Origin: Bacteroidota bacterium
GTDB lineage: Bacteria; Bacteroidota; Ignavibacteria; Ignavibacteriales; Ignavibacteriaceae
Length of the DNA: 38,102 bases
Direction of reading: 5' to 3'
NCBI GenBank assembly: GCA_021815365.1
Contig: JAKAGZ010000021.1
Location: 6,693-44,794, forward strand
Shown here: piece by piece, positions 2,576 through 35,791 of the stretch
Numbering within the stretch: the first letter of the stretch is position 1
Layout: every line of letters begins with the position of its first letter
The notes under the pieces: model-generated
Databases searched by the model: none
The model's input: the letters and a program-made list of their open reading frames with translations, nothing else
What the model was told of the DNA's origin: nothing
Program-made: the position numbers and the translations under genes

Positions 2576-4408
2576 TTATTTTTCTCCTAAAATATTTTCT
2601 ATTTTCTTTTCAATCTCAGATGATTTGAAAGGCAGCCCCTGGATCTTGTTGAACGGCTGCACCCTTGCACCAACTTCACTTGAAAGAATTTTTGAAAGCT
2701 GTCCCATATTAAGCTCGGGACAAAGTATATATTTAAACTTTCTTAAAACATCGCCGGTATTTTTAGGTAAAGGATTTATATATCTGAAATGCGTCTGCGC
2801 AACTTTCAATCCTTTTTTCCTGCATCGGTTTACTGCTTCTGTAATTGCGCCGTAAGTTCCTCCCCACCCTCCAACAATTAATTCTGCGTCTTTATCCCCT
2901 TCCACATCAAGTTCCGGAATATCGTTCTCAATATTTTTAACTTTCTGCGCTCTCAATCTTACCATAAACTCGTGGTTCTCAGGATCGTAACTAACATTTC
3001 CAGTTATGTTTGCTTTTTCAAGTCCGCCGATCCGGTGTTCAAGTCCCGGTGTGCCGGGAAGTGCCCAGGGTCTTGAAAGATTTTCATCTCTTAAGTAAGG
3101 CTGGAAACCTTCTTTCTCTGTTCTGAATTTTACTTCAATCTTAGGAATAGAATCAGGGTCAGGAATTTTCCACGGCTCGGATCCGTTAGCGAGATAACCA
3201 TCTGACATTAACATAACCGGCACCATATATTTGGTTGCAATCCGGGTAGCTTCGAGCGCAAGATTAAAACAATCAGCAGGAGTTTTTGCTGCAAGAACAA
3301 CTATCGGTGCTTCACCATTTCTTCCGTACATTGCCTGAAGAAGATCAGACTGTTCTGTTTTTGTCGGCAGACCTGTGCTTGGTCCACCTCTCTGCACATC
3401 AATAATTATAATCGGAAGCTCTGTCATAACAGCCAGACCAATCGCTTCAGTTTTTAATGCGACGCCTGGTCCGCTAGTAGTTGTGATAGCAAGCGCTCCT
3501 GAAAATGCTGCCCCGATCGCAGCAGTTATTGCAGCGATCTCATCTTCTGCCTGGAAAGTTCTTACTCCGAAATTTTTGTGCTTGCTTAATTCGTGCAGAA
3601 TATCCGAAGCCGGTGTGATCGGGTATGAACCAAGGAACAAAGGAAGACCGGACTTAACAGAAGCTGTAACAAAACCAATTGCAAGAGCTTCGTTACCGGT
3701 AATGTTCCTGTATTTTCCTTTTGGCAATTTCGCAGGTTCTACCTGGTAACGGGTCGTAAATAATTCAGTGTTCTCACCGAAATAATATCCAGCCATCAAA
3801 GCTTTTTCGTTGCCTGCCGCAATATCGGGAGTGTTTTTAAATTTATTTTTGATCCATTGCTGAGTAGGTTCAACAGGTCTGCTGAAAAGCCAGTACATCA
3901 TTCCAAGTGCAAAAAAGTTTTTTGAGCGCGCAATCTCTTTAGCAGAGAGTCCGCTGTTCTCAAGAGCAGTTGCTGTAAGCTGACTCAACGGGACCGGGAT
4001 GACATTAAATCCGTCAAGCGAGCCATCTTCTAAGGGATTAGTTTCGTACTCTGCCAATCTCAGACTTTTAGAATCGAAAGAATTAATATTCACAATAATT
4101 GTAGAACCGGGTCGCATATTATTCAGATTTACTTTCAGTGCTGCAGGGTTCATCGCAACAAGCACATCAGGCTGATCGCCGGGAGTGTGAATATCGCTGC
4201 TGCTGAAATGAAGCTGAAAGCCGCTCACCCCGTAAGTAGTTCCAGCAGGCGCTCTGATCTCAGCAGGAAAATCAGGAAGAGTGCTCAGGTCATTTCCAAC
4301 CAGAGCGGTTGTGTTTGTAAATTGCGAACCAGTTAACTGCATTCCGTCACCGGAATCACCTGCAAATCTTACAGTCACATCGGTTAAATCCATTACTTCT
4401 TTTGACAT
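2576..4408 (-). CDS. korA: 2-oxoacid:ferredoxin oxidoreductase, fused gamma-alpha subunit
   Basis: Partner of KorB. At 610 residues it is a fusion: an N-terminal gamma domain (about 10-190, beginning VRFAGDSGDGMQLTGSQF) joined to the alpha domain with the pyrimidine-binding region (from about 240, 'LFLGSYPITPASDILHELSK', then 'ITTTSGPGVALKTEAIGLA') and a C-terminal transketolase-like domain ('ELIVGGWGGTYGAITEAV' near 510). The order gamma-alpha followed by a separate beta subunit is the usual KorAB arrangement in Bacteroidota, Chlorobiota and Actinobacteria. ATG start at 4408; the next feature upstream is the gene-poor region up to the TonB receptor, which is divergently transcribed, so the korAB promoter must lie in 4409-4550 or beyond. 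Confidence 0.91.
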   Translation of the reverse strand: MSKEVMDLTDVTVRFAGDSGDGMQLTGSQFTNTTALVGNDLSTLPDFPAEIRAPAGTTYGVSGFQLHFSSSDIHTPGDQPDVLVAMNPAALKVNLNNMRPGSTIIVNINSFDSKSLRLAEYETNPLEDGSLDGFNVIPVPLSQLTATALENSGLSAKEIARSKNFFALGMMYWLFSRPVEPTQQWIKNKFKNTPDIAAGNEKALMAGYYFGENTELFTTRYQVEPAKLPKGKYRNITGNEALAIGFVTASVKSGLPLFLGSYPITPASDILHELSKHKNFGVRTFQAEDEIAAITAAIGAAFSGALAITTTSGPGVALKTEAIGLAVMTELPIIIIDVQRGGPSTGLPTKTEQSDLLQAMYGRNGEAPIVVLAAKTPADCFNLALEATRIATKYMVPVMLMSDGYLANGSEPWKIPDPDSIPKIEVKFRTEKEGFQPYLRDENLSRPWALPGTPGLEHRIGGLEKANITGNVSYDPENHEFMVRLRAQKVKNIENDIPELDVEGDKDAELIVGGWGGTYGAITEAVNRCRKKGLKVAQTHFRYINPLPKNTGDVLRKFKYILCPELNMGQLSKILSSEVGARVQPFNKIQGLPFKSSEIEKKIENILGEK

Positions 4409-33101: not shown

Positions 33102-33146
33102 CTTTGATATTTGAAATTTATTTAAAGTTTAGGTCATATGACCACA

Positions 33147-33182
33147 GGAGACTAAATTTATTTAACAAATTTAGAGGTCTCC
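33147..33182 (+). promoter_or_regulatory. Left-end stem-loop covering the first DUF1670 ribosome-binding site
   Basis: GGAGA(C) at 33147-33152 pairs with (G)TCTCC at 33177-33182, and CTAAATTT (33152-33159) with AAATTTAG (33167-33174). The AGAGG ribosome-binding sequence (33173-33177) sits in the right arm, 6 bases before the ATG at 33184. A transcript entering from outside the element would fold and hide it, as described for IS10/IS50 transposase genes. One transcript starting inside the left arm would not. Confidence 0.5.
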
Positions 33183-33183
33183 T

Positions 33184-34038
33184 ATGGATAAAATTAAAAA
33201 TACTGACCCTTACGGACTTAAGCGTCTCGAGTCTAAAAATGCTAAAAATGCTAAGAATGCTATCATTCAAAAACTCTCCCAGGACTTTAACCTGACTCCT
33301 ATTATTGCTGAAGCTTTTTATCAGCAAGTCTCTGTTTATTTTTCGGAACATTCTAACATCTCTCTTTCTTCTGGTGAAGTTTCCTACGAAGCTGTTTGTT
33401 CAACTGAACCGGCTGGCAAGCACATTCGGCTTACTCGTAAAGTTACTTGCCGATTGAAGCTTATGGACATTAACTCCGACTTTGATGCCCTGGCTAACTT
33501 TGGGCTTGCAGGAATGAGACGCCTTCGCATTGAACGTCTTACTCGTCAAGCCTATGATCAAGGGGCCCTGCTTACTTATGAAGACCTTGCTCTGCTGCTT
33601 ACTACTTCTCCAGCTACTGTTAAACGTGATATCTTTTTCCTTCGTAAAGATGGCAAGTTTATTATGACTAGAGGAACCAAGCTTGATATGGGCCCAGGGC
33701 TTTCTCATAAGTCTATCATCCTTGATTTTTACTTCAAAGGCTACTCCTTTACTGATATTGAGCTTAAAACCAATCACTCCGAGACTTCTGTTAAACGTTA
33801 TCTTGCTGATTTCGTTCAAGTTGCTACCCTATACAAACAAAACTTCTCTCAGCAGCAAATTCGTCTCATCGCCCAAAAATCTGACCGCCTCGTTAGAGAA
33901 TACATCCAGCTTTACGATATCTACTACAAGCTTGATAATAATCGCTTGCTTGAGCTTATCTCTCCTCAATCAGTTGATGAGACTGCTAAAAAAAAATCCC
34001 GATTTCCTTCCAGCAGAGGAGGCAGAAAAAATGAGTAA
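33184..34038 (+). CDS. DUF1670-like protein A, two helix-turn-helix segments
   Basis: A 284-residue protein that I place in DUF1670 from its middle and C-terminal pattern. N-terminal domain (about 28-100) of unknown fold ('LSSGEVSYEAVC... KHIRLTRKVTCRLKL'), then a linker 'RLTRQAYDQGALLT', HTH 1 at about 129-158 (LTYEDLALLLTTSPATVKRD), the 'TRGTKLDMGPGLSHK' hinge, and HTH 2 at about 172-211 (SIILDFYFKGYSFTDIELKT...). It ends in a basic tail (KKKSRFPSSRGGRK). An early repeat (KNAKNAKNA) comes from repeated 9-base units of DNA. No catalytic motif seen; likely a DNA-binding protein. It overlaps gene B by 8 bases. Whether DUF1670 proteins mobilise DNA is not known to me. Confidence 0.75.
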   Translation: MDKIKNTDPYGLKRLESKNAKNAKNAIIQKLSQDFNLTPIIAEAFYQQVSVYFSEHSNISLSSGEVSYEAVCSTEPAGKHIRLTRKVTCRLKLMDINSDFDALANFGLAGMRRLRIERLTRQAYDQGALLTYEDLALLLTTSPATVKRDIFFLRKDGKFIMTRGTKLDMGPGLSHKSIILDFYFKGYSFTDIELKTNHSETSVKRYLADFVQVATLYKQNFSQQQIRLIAQKSDRLVREYIQLYDIYYKLDNNRLLELISPQSVDETAKKKSRFPSSRGGRKNE

Positions 34039-34852
34039 ATCTTTAACCAAAGAACAAATCCAACTCAAAAAGTTTCGTCGGCTCTCTGATAAGTCTCTTG
34101 AGCAGCACCTGCTTTATCGTTTCCTTAATAACTATGGCTACGATAAAGGGGAGGTAACAGCTAAAGCTATCATCAACGATATCCTTCAGCTTATTGATCA
34201 TTTTTTCCTTGTCTCTTCAATTGATGATGACCTTCACCACATTAACTACGGTCAGCTTGTCTGGATGGCTGTGCCTGTTGATGAGTTTCCGCAAAGAAGT
34301 AAATCCATTGCCAGAACACGGCTCAAACCCGTTGTGCTTTCTTTTATTAACGACGAAGACATCTCGCATATTGCTCACGGCTTTGATTCTAAGTCTCTTC
34401 GTAAAAACCGGCTCAAGCGTTGGGTTGACCAAGCCTTCGACCAAGGTGCTTTACTTACTCAGCTTGATCTGGCTGTCTTGCTTGGCGTTTGTGATGCTGT
34501 CGTTAGTCAGTATGTTCAGGAAATTCAGAAAGAAGGTCATCTTCTGCCTACTCGTGGTAATATTCACGATCTCTCAGGAGCTATTACTCACAAAAGAGAA
34601 ATCATTACTCTTTATCTGCAAGGTTATCTTACTCCTGATATTGCTCTGAAAACCAATCACTCTAAAGAAGCCGTTGATCGTTACATCAAAGACTATCACA
34701 GAGTGGAGATCCTTTGGTCTCACGATATTAAAGACCCGGATAAAATATCTCTTCTTTCCAGGTTATCTAAACGAGTTGTGCAGCAGTATATTGATCTTTT
34801 ACCAGTTAAATTCAAAAACAGCTTGTCAAAGAACGATGAAAATACTAATTGA
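34031..34852 (+). CDS. DUF1670-like protein B, paralogue of A
   Basis: Starts at ATG 34031 (MSKSLTKEQIQLKKFRRLSD), 273 residues; the frame is open further upstream only because it is read inside gene A. It has the same order as A: N-terminal domain with 'HHINYGQLVWMAVPVDEF... SIARTRLKPVVLSF' (about 69-105, matching 'SLSSGEVSYEAVCSTEPAG'), 'KRWVDQAFDQGALLT', HTH 1 at 141-170, 'LPTRGNIHDLSGAITHK', HTH 2 at 185-222 (EIITLYLQGYLTPDIALKT), and a similar tail 'LSKRVVQQYIDL'. A and B are clearly paralogous but diverged, so they arose by duplication long ago and may form a heterodimer. Confidence 0.75.
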   Translation: MSKSLTKEQIQLKKFRRLSDKSLEQHLLYRFLNNYGYDKGEVTAKAIINDILQLIDHFFLVSSIDDDLHHINYGQLVWMAVPVDEFPQRSKSIARTRLKPVVLSFINDEDISHIAHGFDSKSLRKNRLKRWVDQAFDQGALLTQLDLAVLLGVCDAVVSQYVQEIQKEGHLLPTRGNIHDLSGAITHKREIITLYLQGYLTPDIALKTNHSKEAVDRYIKDYHRVEILWSHDIKDPDKISLLSRLSKRVVQQYIDLLPVKFKNSLSKNDENTN

Positions 34853-34875
34853 ACTTTATTTTAACTTCTTTATTT

Positions 34876-34906
34876 TAAGGGAAACGATTTGTTTTCGCTT
34901 CCCTTA
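34876..34906 (+). terminator. Hairpin near the right end of the element
   Basis: TAAGGGAA (34876-34883) and TTCCCTTA (34899-34906) pair perfectly; inside, CGA and TCG extend the stem past one mismatch. T-rich sequence follows (TTCTTGTTCTTTCTT). It may terminate the two-gene transcript or be a structural part of the element end. Confidence 0.5.
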
Positions 34907-34972
34907 TGGCTTCTTGTTCTTTCTTAACTTATTTATTTACAATTACTTATGTCTTCCTCTGGTCATATGATA

Positions 34973-35791
34973 CTATTTCAATAGGATAAACTTCTTTGTA
35001 GCGGTAAGATTTCCCGCCTGCATCGTATAAAAATATATTCCGCCCGGTAATTTGCTTCCATCAAAATTAACTGCATATATGCCAGCCGGTTTTTCTTCAT
35101 TTACAAGTGTCGTAATTTCTCTTCCAAGAATATCGTAGACTTTAAGATTAACAAACTGACTGCTGTTTAATTTATACTGAATAATTGTGCCGGGGTTAAA
35201 TGGATTAGGATAGTTCTGAGATAAATTAAACGGTATTATTTTCTTATTCTGACCTAAAACAGAGTTTAAGTTATCAAGTTTTATCACCTCTAGTTTATCA
35301 ACAAGTATCGCACTCGCAACAATTCCTCCTGCACCCATAGAAAGCATAATTTTCTTTCCGGCAGGGCAAAACAATGTATCTGCACTCTGGTAAAACGTCC
35401 ACTCTTTTTTATCTATGTAAACGTATGCCCCCTTAGAATAATTTCCTTCTATTTGAATAGAAGCGCCTCCTCCAATCTGTAAATTTTTGCCATAACAACT
35501 AAGAATAAAATATTCATCTTTATCAAAGGGACCTAAGGTAATCCAGGCATGAGGAACTATGCATGCACCGGAAACGTAAAGAGATTGTTTCCCTCCATCA
35601 GGCGGTGCGTCTGAATAAAATTTTCTGCTGCCGTATCCCTGCCAGCCAACTGTGTCATTAGGTGACTCAAACGAATTGAAATAAATCACCTGCCCAGGCT
35701 GTTGTGCCTGTAAAATCTGCTGATTTAAAATCAGGTTAATGAAAATGATAGAGAGCAAAACTGGTAAAGTAAAATGTCTTTTAGTTATCAT
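34973..35791 (-). CDS. Type IX-secreted protein with C-terminal sorting domain
   Basis: A 272-residue exported protein: signal peptide to about residue 30 (…LNQQILQAQQ), a beta-rich domain of about 150 residues with no recognised family ('VIYFNSFESPNDTVGWQGYG'), and a type A sorting domain from about 190 (LSQNYPNPFNPGTIIQYKL, VKVYDILGREITTLVNEE-like 'LKVYDILGREITTL', 'GGIYFYTMQAGN', ending KKFILLK). The middle resembles a carbohydrate-binding jelly-roll fold in composition, but this is a guess. Good ribosome-binding site AGGAGG before ATG 35791. The stop codon lies 2 bases from the DUF1670 element end, so the insertion just spared the gene. Confidence 0.85.
   Translation of the reverse strand: MITKRHFTLPVLLSIIFINLILNQQILQAQQPGQVIYFNSFESPNDTVGWQGYGSRKFYSDAPPDGGKQSLYVSGACIVPHAWITLGPFDKDEYFILSCYGKNLQIGGGASIQIEGNYSKGAYVYIDKKEWTFYQSADTLFCPAGKKIMLSMGAGGIVASAILVDKLEVIKLDNLNSVLGQNKKIIPFNLSQNYPNPFNPGTIIQYKLNSSQFVNLKVYDILGREITTLVNEEKPAGIYAVNFDGSKLPGGIYFYTMQAGNLTATKKFILLK

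Follow-up and report, generated by a model that had tools for sequence, protein, structure and literature searches.

Paired DUF1670 genes in a probable site-specific mobile element found at the ends of T9SS sorting-domain genes

The window, which is the whole stretch of 38,102 nucleotides that was analysed (G000:C3:6693-44794, G000 being its own genome), carries an element of 1853 bp at 33124-34976. The element encodes two DUF1670 proteins, P1 and P2, and its boundaries come from a comparison of 23 elements and from the empty sites of two other copies. That it is a mobile element with T9SS gene ends as its target is nearly certain, as far as comparison of sequences can establish this. Within that limit, the comparison demonstrates mobility, the ends, the target, a 2-bp duplication, restoration of the stop codon, deleted copies, and scars. 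What explains the data best is an autonomous, IS-sized element that inserts site-specifically and is mobilized by its DUF1670 pair. This reading is probable, and end binding and strand exchange by the pair are inferred.

The element and its ends

The inverted repeat arms, 33134-33149 and 34955-34970, are 16 nt long and 94% complementary. The window contains TCATATGACCASAGGA twice without mismatch, at the two arms, and three times at up to 3 mismatches, where 0.37 are expected. The whole own genome holds the same two exact copies and two more with 2 mismatches. Two long same-strand genes, 33184-34038 and 34031-34852, lie between the arms, and the other listed open reading frames overlap them. 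P1 (33184-34038, plus strand, 284 aa) is a DUF1670 protein with an N-terminal domain that has no confident match, a winged helix-turn-helix (HTH), and two further HTH-like units. P2 (34031-34852, plus strand, 273 aa) is a DUF1670 paralogue of P1, to which it is 28% identical; the two genes overlap by 8 bp.

An earlier sequence-only reading of this DNA had described near-perfect terminal inverted repeats around two paralogous genes and had taken the repeats as the element's ends. The repeats and the paralogy are upheld, but the true ends are at 33124, 10 bp beyond the left repeat, and at 34976, 6 bp beyond the right one. The proposed 8-bp target duplication, TCATATGA, does not survive. TCATATGA is the palindromic subterminal site, whose sequence differs between subfamilies, and the real duplication is a 2-bp TT.

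The left end is side B. Outside it is a relic of the target gene's original end at 33118-33123 (minus strand), recognized in the sequence as the reverse complement of AAA TAA (Lys, stop), and the left copy of the TT duplication is 33122-33123. The outer part, AAAGTTTAGG, occupies 33124-33133 and is conserved in the window's subfamily; the flanks beyond it differ. The subterminal palindrome follows at 33134-33143 and reads GGTCATATGACC when 33132-33133 are included, with its dyad centre 14 bp from TT. On side A, the palindrome GGTCATATGA is found at 34961-34970, with its dyad centre 10 bp from TT, and the outer part at 34971-34976 reads ATAGTA on the minus strand. The right copy of TT, 34977-34978, forms the first two bases of the host gene's Lys codon.

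The host gene (34973-35791, minus strand) is an open reading frame of 272 aa with a T9SS type A sorting domain (TIGR04183 match at G000:C3:41677-41904), ending in GGIYFYTMQAGNLTATKKFILLK and a stop. Its stop codon is 34973-34975, so the element's right end falls inside this codon, and the right arm stops 2 bases short of it. The original Lys-stop is found beyond the left end. ATAGTA on side A contributes the Lys codon's third base and, after it, a new TAG stop. The 2-base spacing between the right repeat and a gene's stop, pointed out from the sequence alone, is part of the target rule and is not incidental. The operon is convergent with the T9SS gene in the window's subfamily and runs in the same direction as that gene in L006, L041, and L043.

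Target, duplication, and distribution

Alignment of the flanks reveals conserved bases outside the inverted repeats, and one side is the 3' end of a T9SS sorting-domain gene (GIYFY...KMILLK and a stop). The order is the gene up to AA, then the element from ATAGTA-palindrome to palindrome-outer part, then AA, a third base, and the original stop codon. On side A the element itself provides the third base and the new stop, and what stands behind side B is the host's old third base and stop (AAA TAA, AAG TGA, AAA TAG, CGA TAG etc.). Insertion is nearly silent because side A starts with ATAG or ATAA, which restores the lysine and the stop.

The 23 tabulated elements are those with both ends placeable by hand-made patterns; copies in L007, L248, and L251 were left out. 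Both sides are readable in 22 of the 23, and 19 of these are at T9SS tails. The other three are in a different gene (L012), behind another element (L031), and in sequence that could not be placed (L032). The same dinucleotide flanks both sides in 21/22 (20 AA, one CG), the exception being L030 with AG and CG. A stop triplet stands behind side B in all 22, including L012, where it is a TAA on the antisense strand. In seven elements that were measured, the dyad centre lies 10 bp from the duplication on side A; on side B the distance is 13 or 14 bp.

Empty sites were found for two other copies. The L012 element interrupts a gene that, read from its sequence, is presumably HIT/DUF4922-like, with a clean 2-bp duplication. 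Homologous intact genes in L140 and L141 align with it gap-free once one 2-bp copy is removed. This non-T9SS target, on the antisense strand, is AAAATGTTTATTGTAAACTAA, one base away from the consensus motif. The T9SS gene in G008 that is orthologous to the L022 host gene (tail GIYFYQLRAGNFVQTRKMIVLK and a stop) is uninterrupted and aligns through the joint, with gaps in the nearby intergenic part. The search for an empty site, suggested by the earlier reading, succeeded for these copies but not for the insertion in the window. The carboxylase gene next to it could be traced in 61/80 genomes, and of the 29 related loci inspected there, the window's own not counted, none has the same T9SS gene. 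Two of the 29 have a T9SS gene nearby that is similar in the sorting domain only.

A stretch of ~30-45 bp around L022 ~3957-4003 recurs many times in G033 and G008 as a short dispersed repeat and makes up most of the 38 and 13 matches in the search of these two genomes.

Strict targeting and near-silent insertion resemble homing elements, and homing by gene conversion would have P1/P2 cut or mark a T9SS tail, with repair copying the element in, as for homing endonuclease genes. The 2-bp duplications already disfavour this. Moreover, on one side the flanks of different sites have the sorting-domain tail in common and on the other they show no evident similarity, the unrelated L012 gene was entered with the same clean duplication, and no nuclease domain is seen. 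Homing is considered very improbable.

A contig scan of genomes for relatives identified 17 loci, labelled Ignavibacteria, other Bacteroidota, Verrucomicrobia, KSB1, Neomarinimicrobiota, and Zixibacteria. Because some of these contigs are only 3-6 kb long, an individual phylum label may reflect a binning error. DUF1670 occurs sporadically, in 8/59 relatives and 12/395 genomes of the phylum, several times at contig ends. Methanosarcina acetivorans also has DUF1670, as seen in a control search.

The first end pattern has 38 matches in the 395 phylum genomes, and the same pattern, slightly narrowed, has 56 in 164 genomes of the order. The union of both searches is 66 places, 48 of which follow a T9SS-type tail, in 20 genomes. 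Eleven belong to another class preceded by TG, and seven are unclassified. As read, L164 and L174 are unrelated, L223 is a tandem, and L167, L237, L242, and L255 have ends at odd or damaged sites. The window-type end has 41 matches in 19/164 genomes, with 38 at T9SS tails, the window's own included, and three elsewhere (L330, L334, L340). Together these are 84 distinct T9SS gene ends (48 and 38, two shared), two of which have the same last 26 bases. The T9SS call in this census is a regular expression on the tail and not a profile search. Reversed-pattern controls gave 2 matches in the 395 genomes, 0 in the 164, and 0 for the window-type end.

The TG-preceded class (L162, L163, L165, L166, L178, L179, L227, L231, L235, L236, L238) is mostly like TTTGATAGTATCAAATGATACTATC and is found in ten genomes. 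It is perhaps an operator common to those lineages.

Several genomes are multicopy: G043 has 9 copies, G041 7, G381 and G498 6 each, and G033 and G455 4 each. In G043, nine ends lie behind nine different T9SS genes without a difference over the 29-87 bp comparable pairwise. Six ends in G381 are identical over 125 bp behind differing host genes. Four ends in G049 are identical over 46-56 bp, and two of the four host tails are 97% alike. These identities rest on the compared end stretches, and full contents were not assembled; contigs break inside multicopy elements, as is expected for multicopy repeats. The criteria of a mobile element are met by the empty sites of two other copies and by identical ends at nine, six, and four loci in three genomes.

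The DUF1670 pair could instead be a resident operon with chance repeats, and the single copy in the window's own genome would be in keeping with this. The same ends at 84 T9SS gene ends and the gap-free empty sites of other copies refute it, and it retains practically no weight. Further copies of the ends and the pair, which the sequence-only reading had proposed to look for, are present in many hosts, and DUF1670 pairs elsewhere do have such ends. Its central proposal of an undescribed mobile element, a DUF1670 pair between inverted repeats, is supported by these copies and by the empty sites elsewhere.

The consensus of the 84 sites is AARATGnTnYTnnTnAA (~17 bp). All 84 occupied T9SS tails have AA at the exchange point, against 15/29 unoccupied tails (Fisher p 3e-10). 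Side B, where the bases are those of the original target, has AA in 20/22 (p 0.005), or in 17/19 for T9SS tails only (p 0.011). The G of the ATG codon is found in 74/84 occupied and 16/29 unoccupied tails. The 29 unoccupied tails are from the own genome only, with the window's occupied gene excluded. The comparison is one between genomes, and the tail rule for the 48 sites asks for a final Lys, favouring AA, so part of the AA excess may be codon usage or selection. Five of the seven unclassified sites also have AA; the other two are those read as unrelated. Target specificity is at the DNA level. The own genome has 64 TIGR04183 sorting-domain matches.

An element end at L255:1384 (G474) follows ...LGREVTTLVK and is read as lying within the sorting domain, not at the tail. 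This position suggests that a target-like sequence occurs at a second place.

No tblastn match to P2 at 1e-5 was observed in 72,556 plasmids or 50,697 phages, and a peptide-pattern scan of viral contigs found no relative. The 16-base end pattern matches 81 stretches in viral contigs, and 21 sites fit the longer side-A pattern. None of the 21 is at a T9SS-like tail, and they were taken as chance; the other stretches were not read. An origin as phage, plasmid, or viral cargo was rejected, with no relatives found in these scans.

The DUF1670 proteins, the palindromes, and the hairpins

P1 and P2 match DUF1670 (PF07900) with E 1.6e-52 and 2.2e-62 (178.5 and 210.7 bits, cut-off 25), and all 27 proteins of set A2 match it in Pfam. 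The nearest P2 relative found is 96% identical and comes from MAG CG1_02_37_35 (Ignavibacteria). Compared with the nearest relative L022, dN is 0.036 and 0.024 and dS is 0.47 and 0.50 for P1 and P2 (simple counting method), and by this estimate both genes are under purifying selection. Both proteins have a winged HTH and further HTH units, and the first ~100 N-terminal residues have no convincing match.

Eleven residues are invariant in 18 P1 and 18 P2 sequences (P1 numbering): G64, L91, R112, R118, Q126, L130, H175, I179, H198, Y206, and Y240. Identities to P1 go down to 22% in a set similar to these 36. The authors judge polar invariants of this kind to be uncommon in plain HTH regulators, and these residues may make up an active site. 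The invariant R, R, H, H, and Y are suggestive only with regard to a tyrosine recombinase, and no Phage_integrase-type domain matches by sequence in P1/P2 or among the best 25 of 48 families for the 27 proteins.

No nuclease, integrase, resolvase, or DDE domain was seen in P1/P2 in Pfam. For DDE domains this holds at E<=1, in line with the earlier statement that no known transposase is inside. Among the best 25 of 48 families, the 27 proteins give only a Tc3 HTH match from DDE elements (one protein, E 0.037). NCBIfam gives weak IS630 matches in 2/27 proteins (best E 0.00056) and an IS21 match in 1/27, whose positions within the proteins were not localized. Membership of the classical DDE insertion sequences is not met by sequence profile, and the fold matches are too weak to decide. 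For serine recombinases, the 2-bp overlap fits, and of the resolvase domains only the HTH matches (HTH_7, 4/27 proteins), with no resolvase catalytic domain among the best 25 of 48 families. No HUH/Y1_Tnp domain was seen in P1/P2 or among the best 25 of 48 families for the 27 proteins. IS200/IS605 membership is not met, given the 2-bp duplication and the lack of an HUH domain among the listed families. A defence system was also rejected: PADLOC matches are weak (best E 1.2e-4; WYL, CARF, mad1, and CasR models) and are read as HTH similarity. Two solved structures at E 0.9 by sequence were judged chance.

Structure models of the two proteins, as the earlier reading had advised, are of moderate confidence (pLDDT 76 and 78, pTM 0.44 and 0.46). 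The fold matches listed for them are weak and mostly HTH proteins, none with an E-value <0.001, and the only recombinases among them are Tn3 and gamma-delta resolvase chains at E 0.23 or more, which excludes nothing. Catalysis by P1/P2 has not been demonstrated because no catalytic domain is seen and the fold matches are weak and mostly HTH.

The tree of P1 and P2 groups elements by end palindrome, so that palindrome classes are clades. The classes are TCAwwTGAcc; GTATCAwwTGATAC; GGACAwwTGTCC; CGACATATGTCG beside TGCCAAATGTCC; GGAAGATCTTCC; and GCCATATGGC. Since the palindrome follows the tree, the proteins are tied to the ends, and the inference that P1/P2 act on the palindromes is held with considerable confidence.

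The distant pair L042:83-1805 (reverse-complement coordinates; G211) and L044:435-2158 (G270) has palindrome GCCATATGGC. Neither has a recognized T9SS target or an evident 2-bp duplication. The flanks end in CCCCT at one side and in AGGGG at the other, which looks like a position within a hairpin.

Full-length elements measure 1.69-2.08 kb. Shorter copies that keep both ends are 907 bp (L034), 949 bp (L036), 636 bp (L037), 480 bp (L258), and 220 bp (L245). Single-palindrome scars, with outer parts of both ends and AA on both sides, are found at 7/48 sites on the authors' reading (L181, L184, L188, L233, L234, L247, L254). They imply that the stretch separating the two palindromes was lost, through action of the pair or through replication slippage. 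L031 and L248 are tandems, with one element at a T9SS gene and, at side B of that element, another from a different subfamily. No joined-ends junction, from a circle or a same-type tandem, was found in 164 genomes.

Decayed copies are also observed. L251:2106, 6017, and 9941 (G458) are three decayed DUF1670 copies, each behind a T9SS gene and 3.9 kb apart. P1 is split over two frames between element ends at L026:2322-3153, and broken DUF1670 genes lie between ends at L036:2304-3064 and in L015 and L007. The copies in L036 and G025 are frameshifted or fused.

Strand exchange might fall to a recombinase that acts in trans, from the host or elsewhere, in the way that XerCD serves IMEX, with P1/P2 binding the ends, choosing the target, or regulating. 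The proteins look like multi-HTH DNA-binding proteins by profile and fold, and the deleted copies of 907, 949, 636, 480, and 220 bp keep both ends like elements moved in trans, though they may have shrunk in place. Against this, P1/P2 are under strong purifying selection and are the sole shared content seen in elements of many lineages, and a different P1/P2 clade goes with a different end palindrome. In addition, a 2-bp duplication is unlike the 6-8 bp overlap of Xer-type tyrosine recombinases. Movement in trans thus remains possible and is considered unlikely. Movement by the pair itself is preferred, and P1/P2 are inferred as the catalysts, at even chances or slightly better, because the element shows no further gene and nothing in it is recognized as a known recombinase.

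In an RNA hairpin at 33142-33187 (plus strand; z -3.80), the region of the P1 ribosome-binding site and start codon is base-paired with the inner edge of the end. From the end to the P1 start, 19 elements have z of -1.6 to -8.6, with 18/19 below -2.2; 12 of these regions were picked after earlier inspection, and the other seven were folded later and counted. In most elements, the P1 ribosome-binding site or start region has the end or its inner edge as pairing partner. The hairpin sequences differ between subfamilies, and L042 and L044 have their strongest stem deeper inside the element. The hairpin probably silences expression from read-through transcripts. A stem-loop behind P2 at 34877-34905 (plus strand) is a possible terminator; 34870-34915 folds to -13.3 kcal/mol, without shuffles, and the stem-loop is absent from the terminator scan listing. 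No RNA family matches at gathering scores. A stem-loop near each end, noted from the sequence alone, is thus present.

In the proposed mechanism, P1 and P2, the only proteins seen encoded, would bind the palindrome near each end. The bound ends would be brought to a ~17-bp target resembling the last codons of a T9SS sorting-domain gene. Joining with a 2-bp stagger would leave a dinucleotide, nearly always AA/TT, on both sides, and ATAG or ATAA of side A would give the host gene back its lysine and stop codon. Dozens of sorting-domain genes would offer many targets per genome, and the hairpin over the P1 ribosome-binding site would block expression from read-through transcripts. It is an even call whether paired DUF1670 proteins are a new recombinase class, that is, a multi-HTH heteromer moving elements into a T9SS-tail safe harbour with exact Lys/stop restoration in several phyla, with a putative catalytic centre of R112, R118, H175, H198, and Y206/Y240.

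Relation to known mobile elements

Within the literature searched, no paper naming DUF1670 or PF07900 was found, and none describing such an element, as judged from titles and abstract starts; the element family is apparently undescribed. Prokaryotic mobile elements are sorted by their recombinase, and the DUF1670 element family is mobile with none of the known ones seen. DUF1670 pairs, a family of unknown function, gain a role, and the existence of a new recombinase can be tested on them directly. The element also shows how a sorting signal shared by dozens of proteins can double, in their genes, as a landing site for mobile DNA, and an inserter that is precise to 2 bp and restores the stop would be of technical use.

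IS630/mariner-type elements have a 2-bp duplication (TA) and HTH domains. The DUF1670 element shares the 2-bp duplication and the HTH domains, with weak IS630 and Tc3 HTH matches. However, it duplicates AA/TT and not TA, has a target motif of ~17 bp, and shows no DDE domain match for P1/P2 or among the best 25 of 48 families.

In IS10/IS50, a hairpin in read-through transcripts hides the transposase ribosome-binding site. A comparable hairpin lies over the P1 start in the DUF1670 element, which has different ends and no matching transposase domain.

IMEX are small, have no recognizable recombinase, need dif-like sites, and use the host XerCD. The DUF1670 element is likewise small and without a recognizable recombinase, but it uses T9SS gene ends, a 2-bp stagger, and a conserved protein pair. 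IMEX membership is not met on account of the T9SS gene-end target, XerCD dependence aside.

The IS1202 family (ISAjo2-like) inserts next to dif/pdif sites and is described as like the DUF1670 element in being IS-sized, with terminal inverted repeats, one narrow target, and a fixed orientation (PMC10132070). The DUF1670 element has another target, a 2-bp duplication, and no transposase catalytic domain seen.

Tn7 at attTn7 (the end of glmS) and integrases at tRNA gene ends insert at the 3' end of a conserved gene and keep it functional. The DUF1670 element does likewise. No DDE, AAA+, or tyrosine recombinase gene is seen in it. Whereas Tn7 and the tRNA-end integrases use one or few sites, the DUF1670 element uses many T9SS genes.
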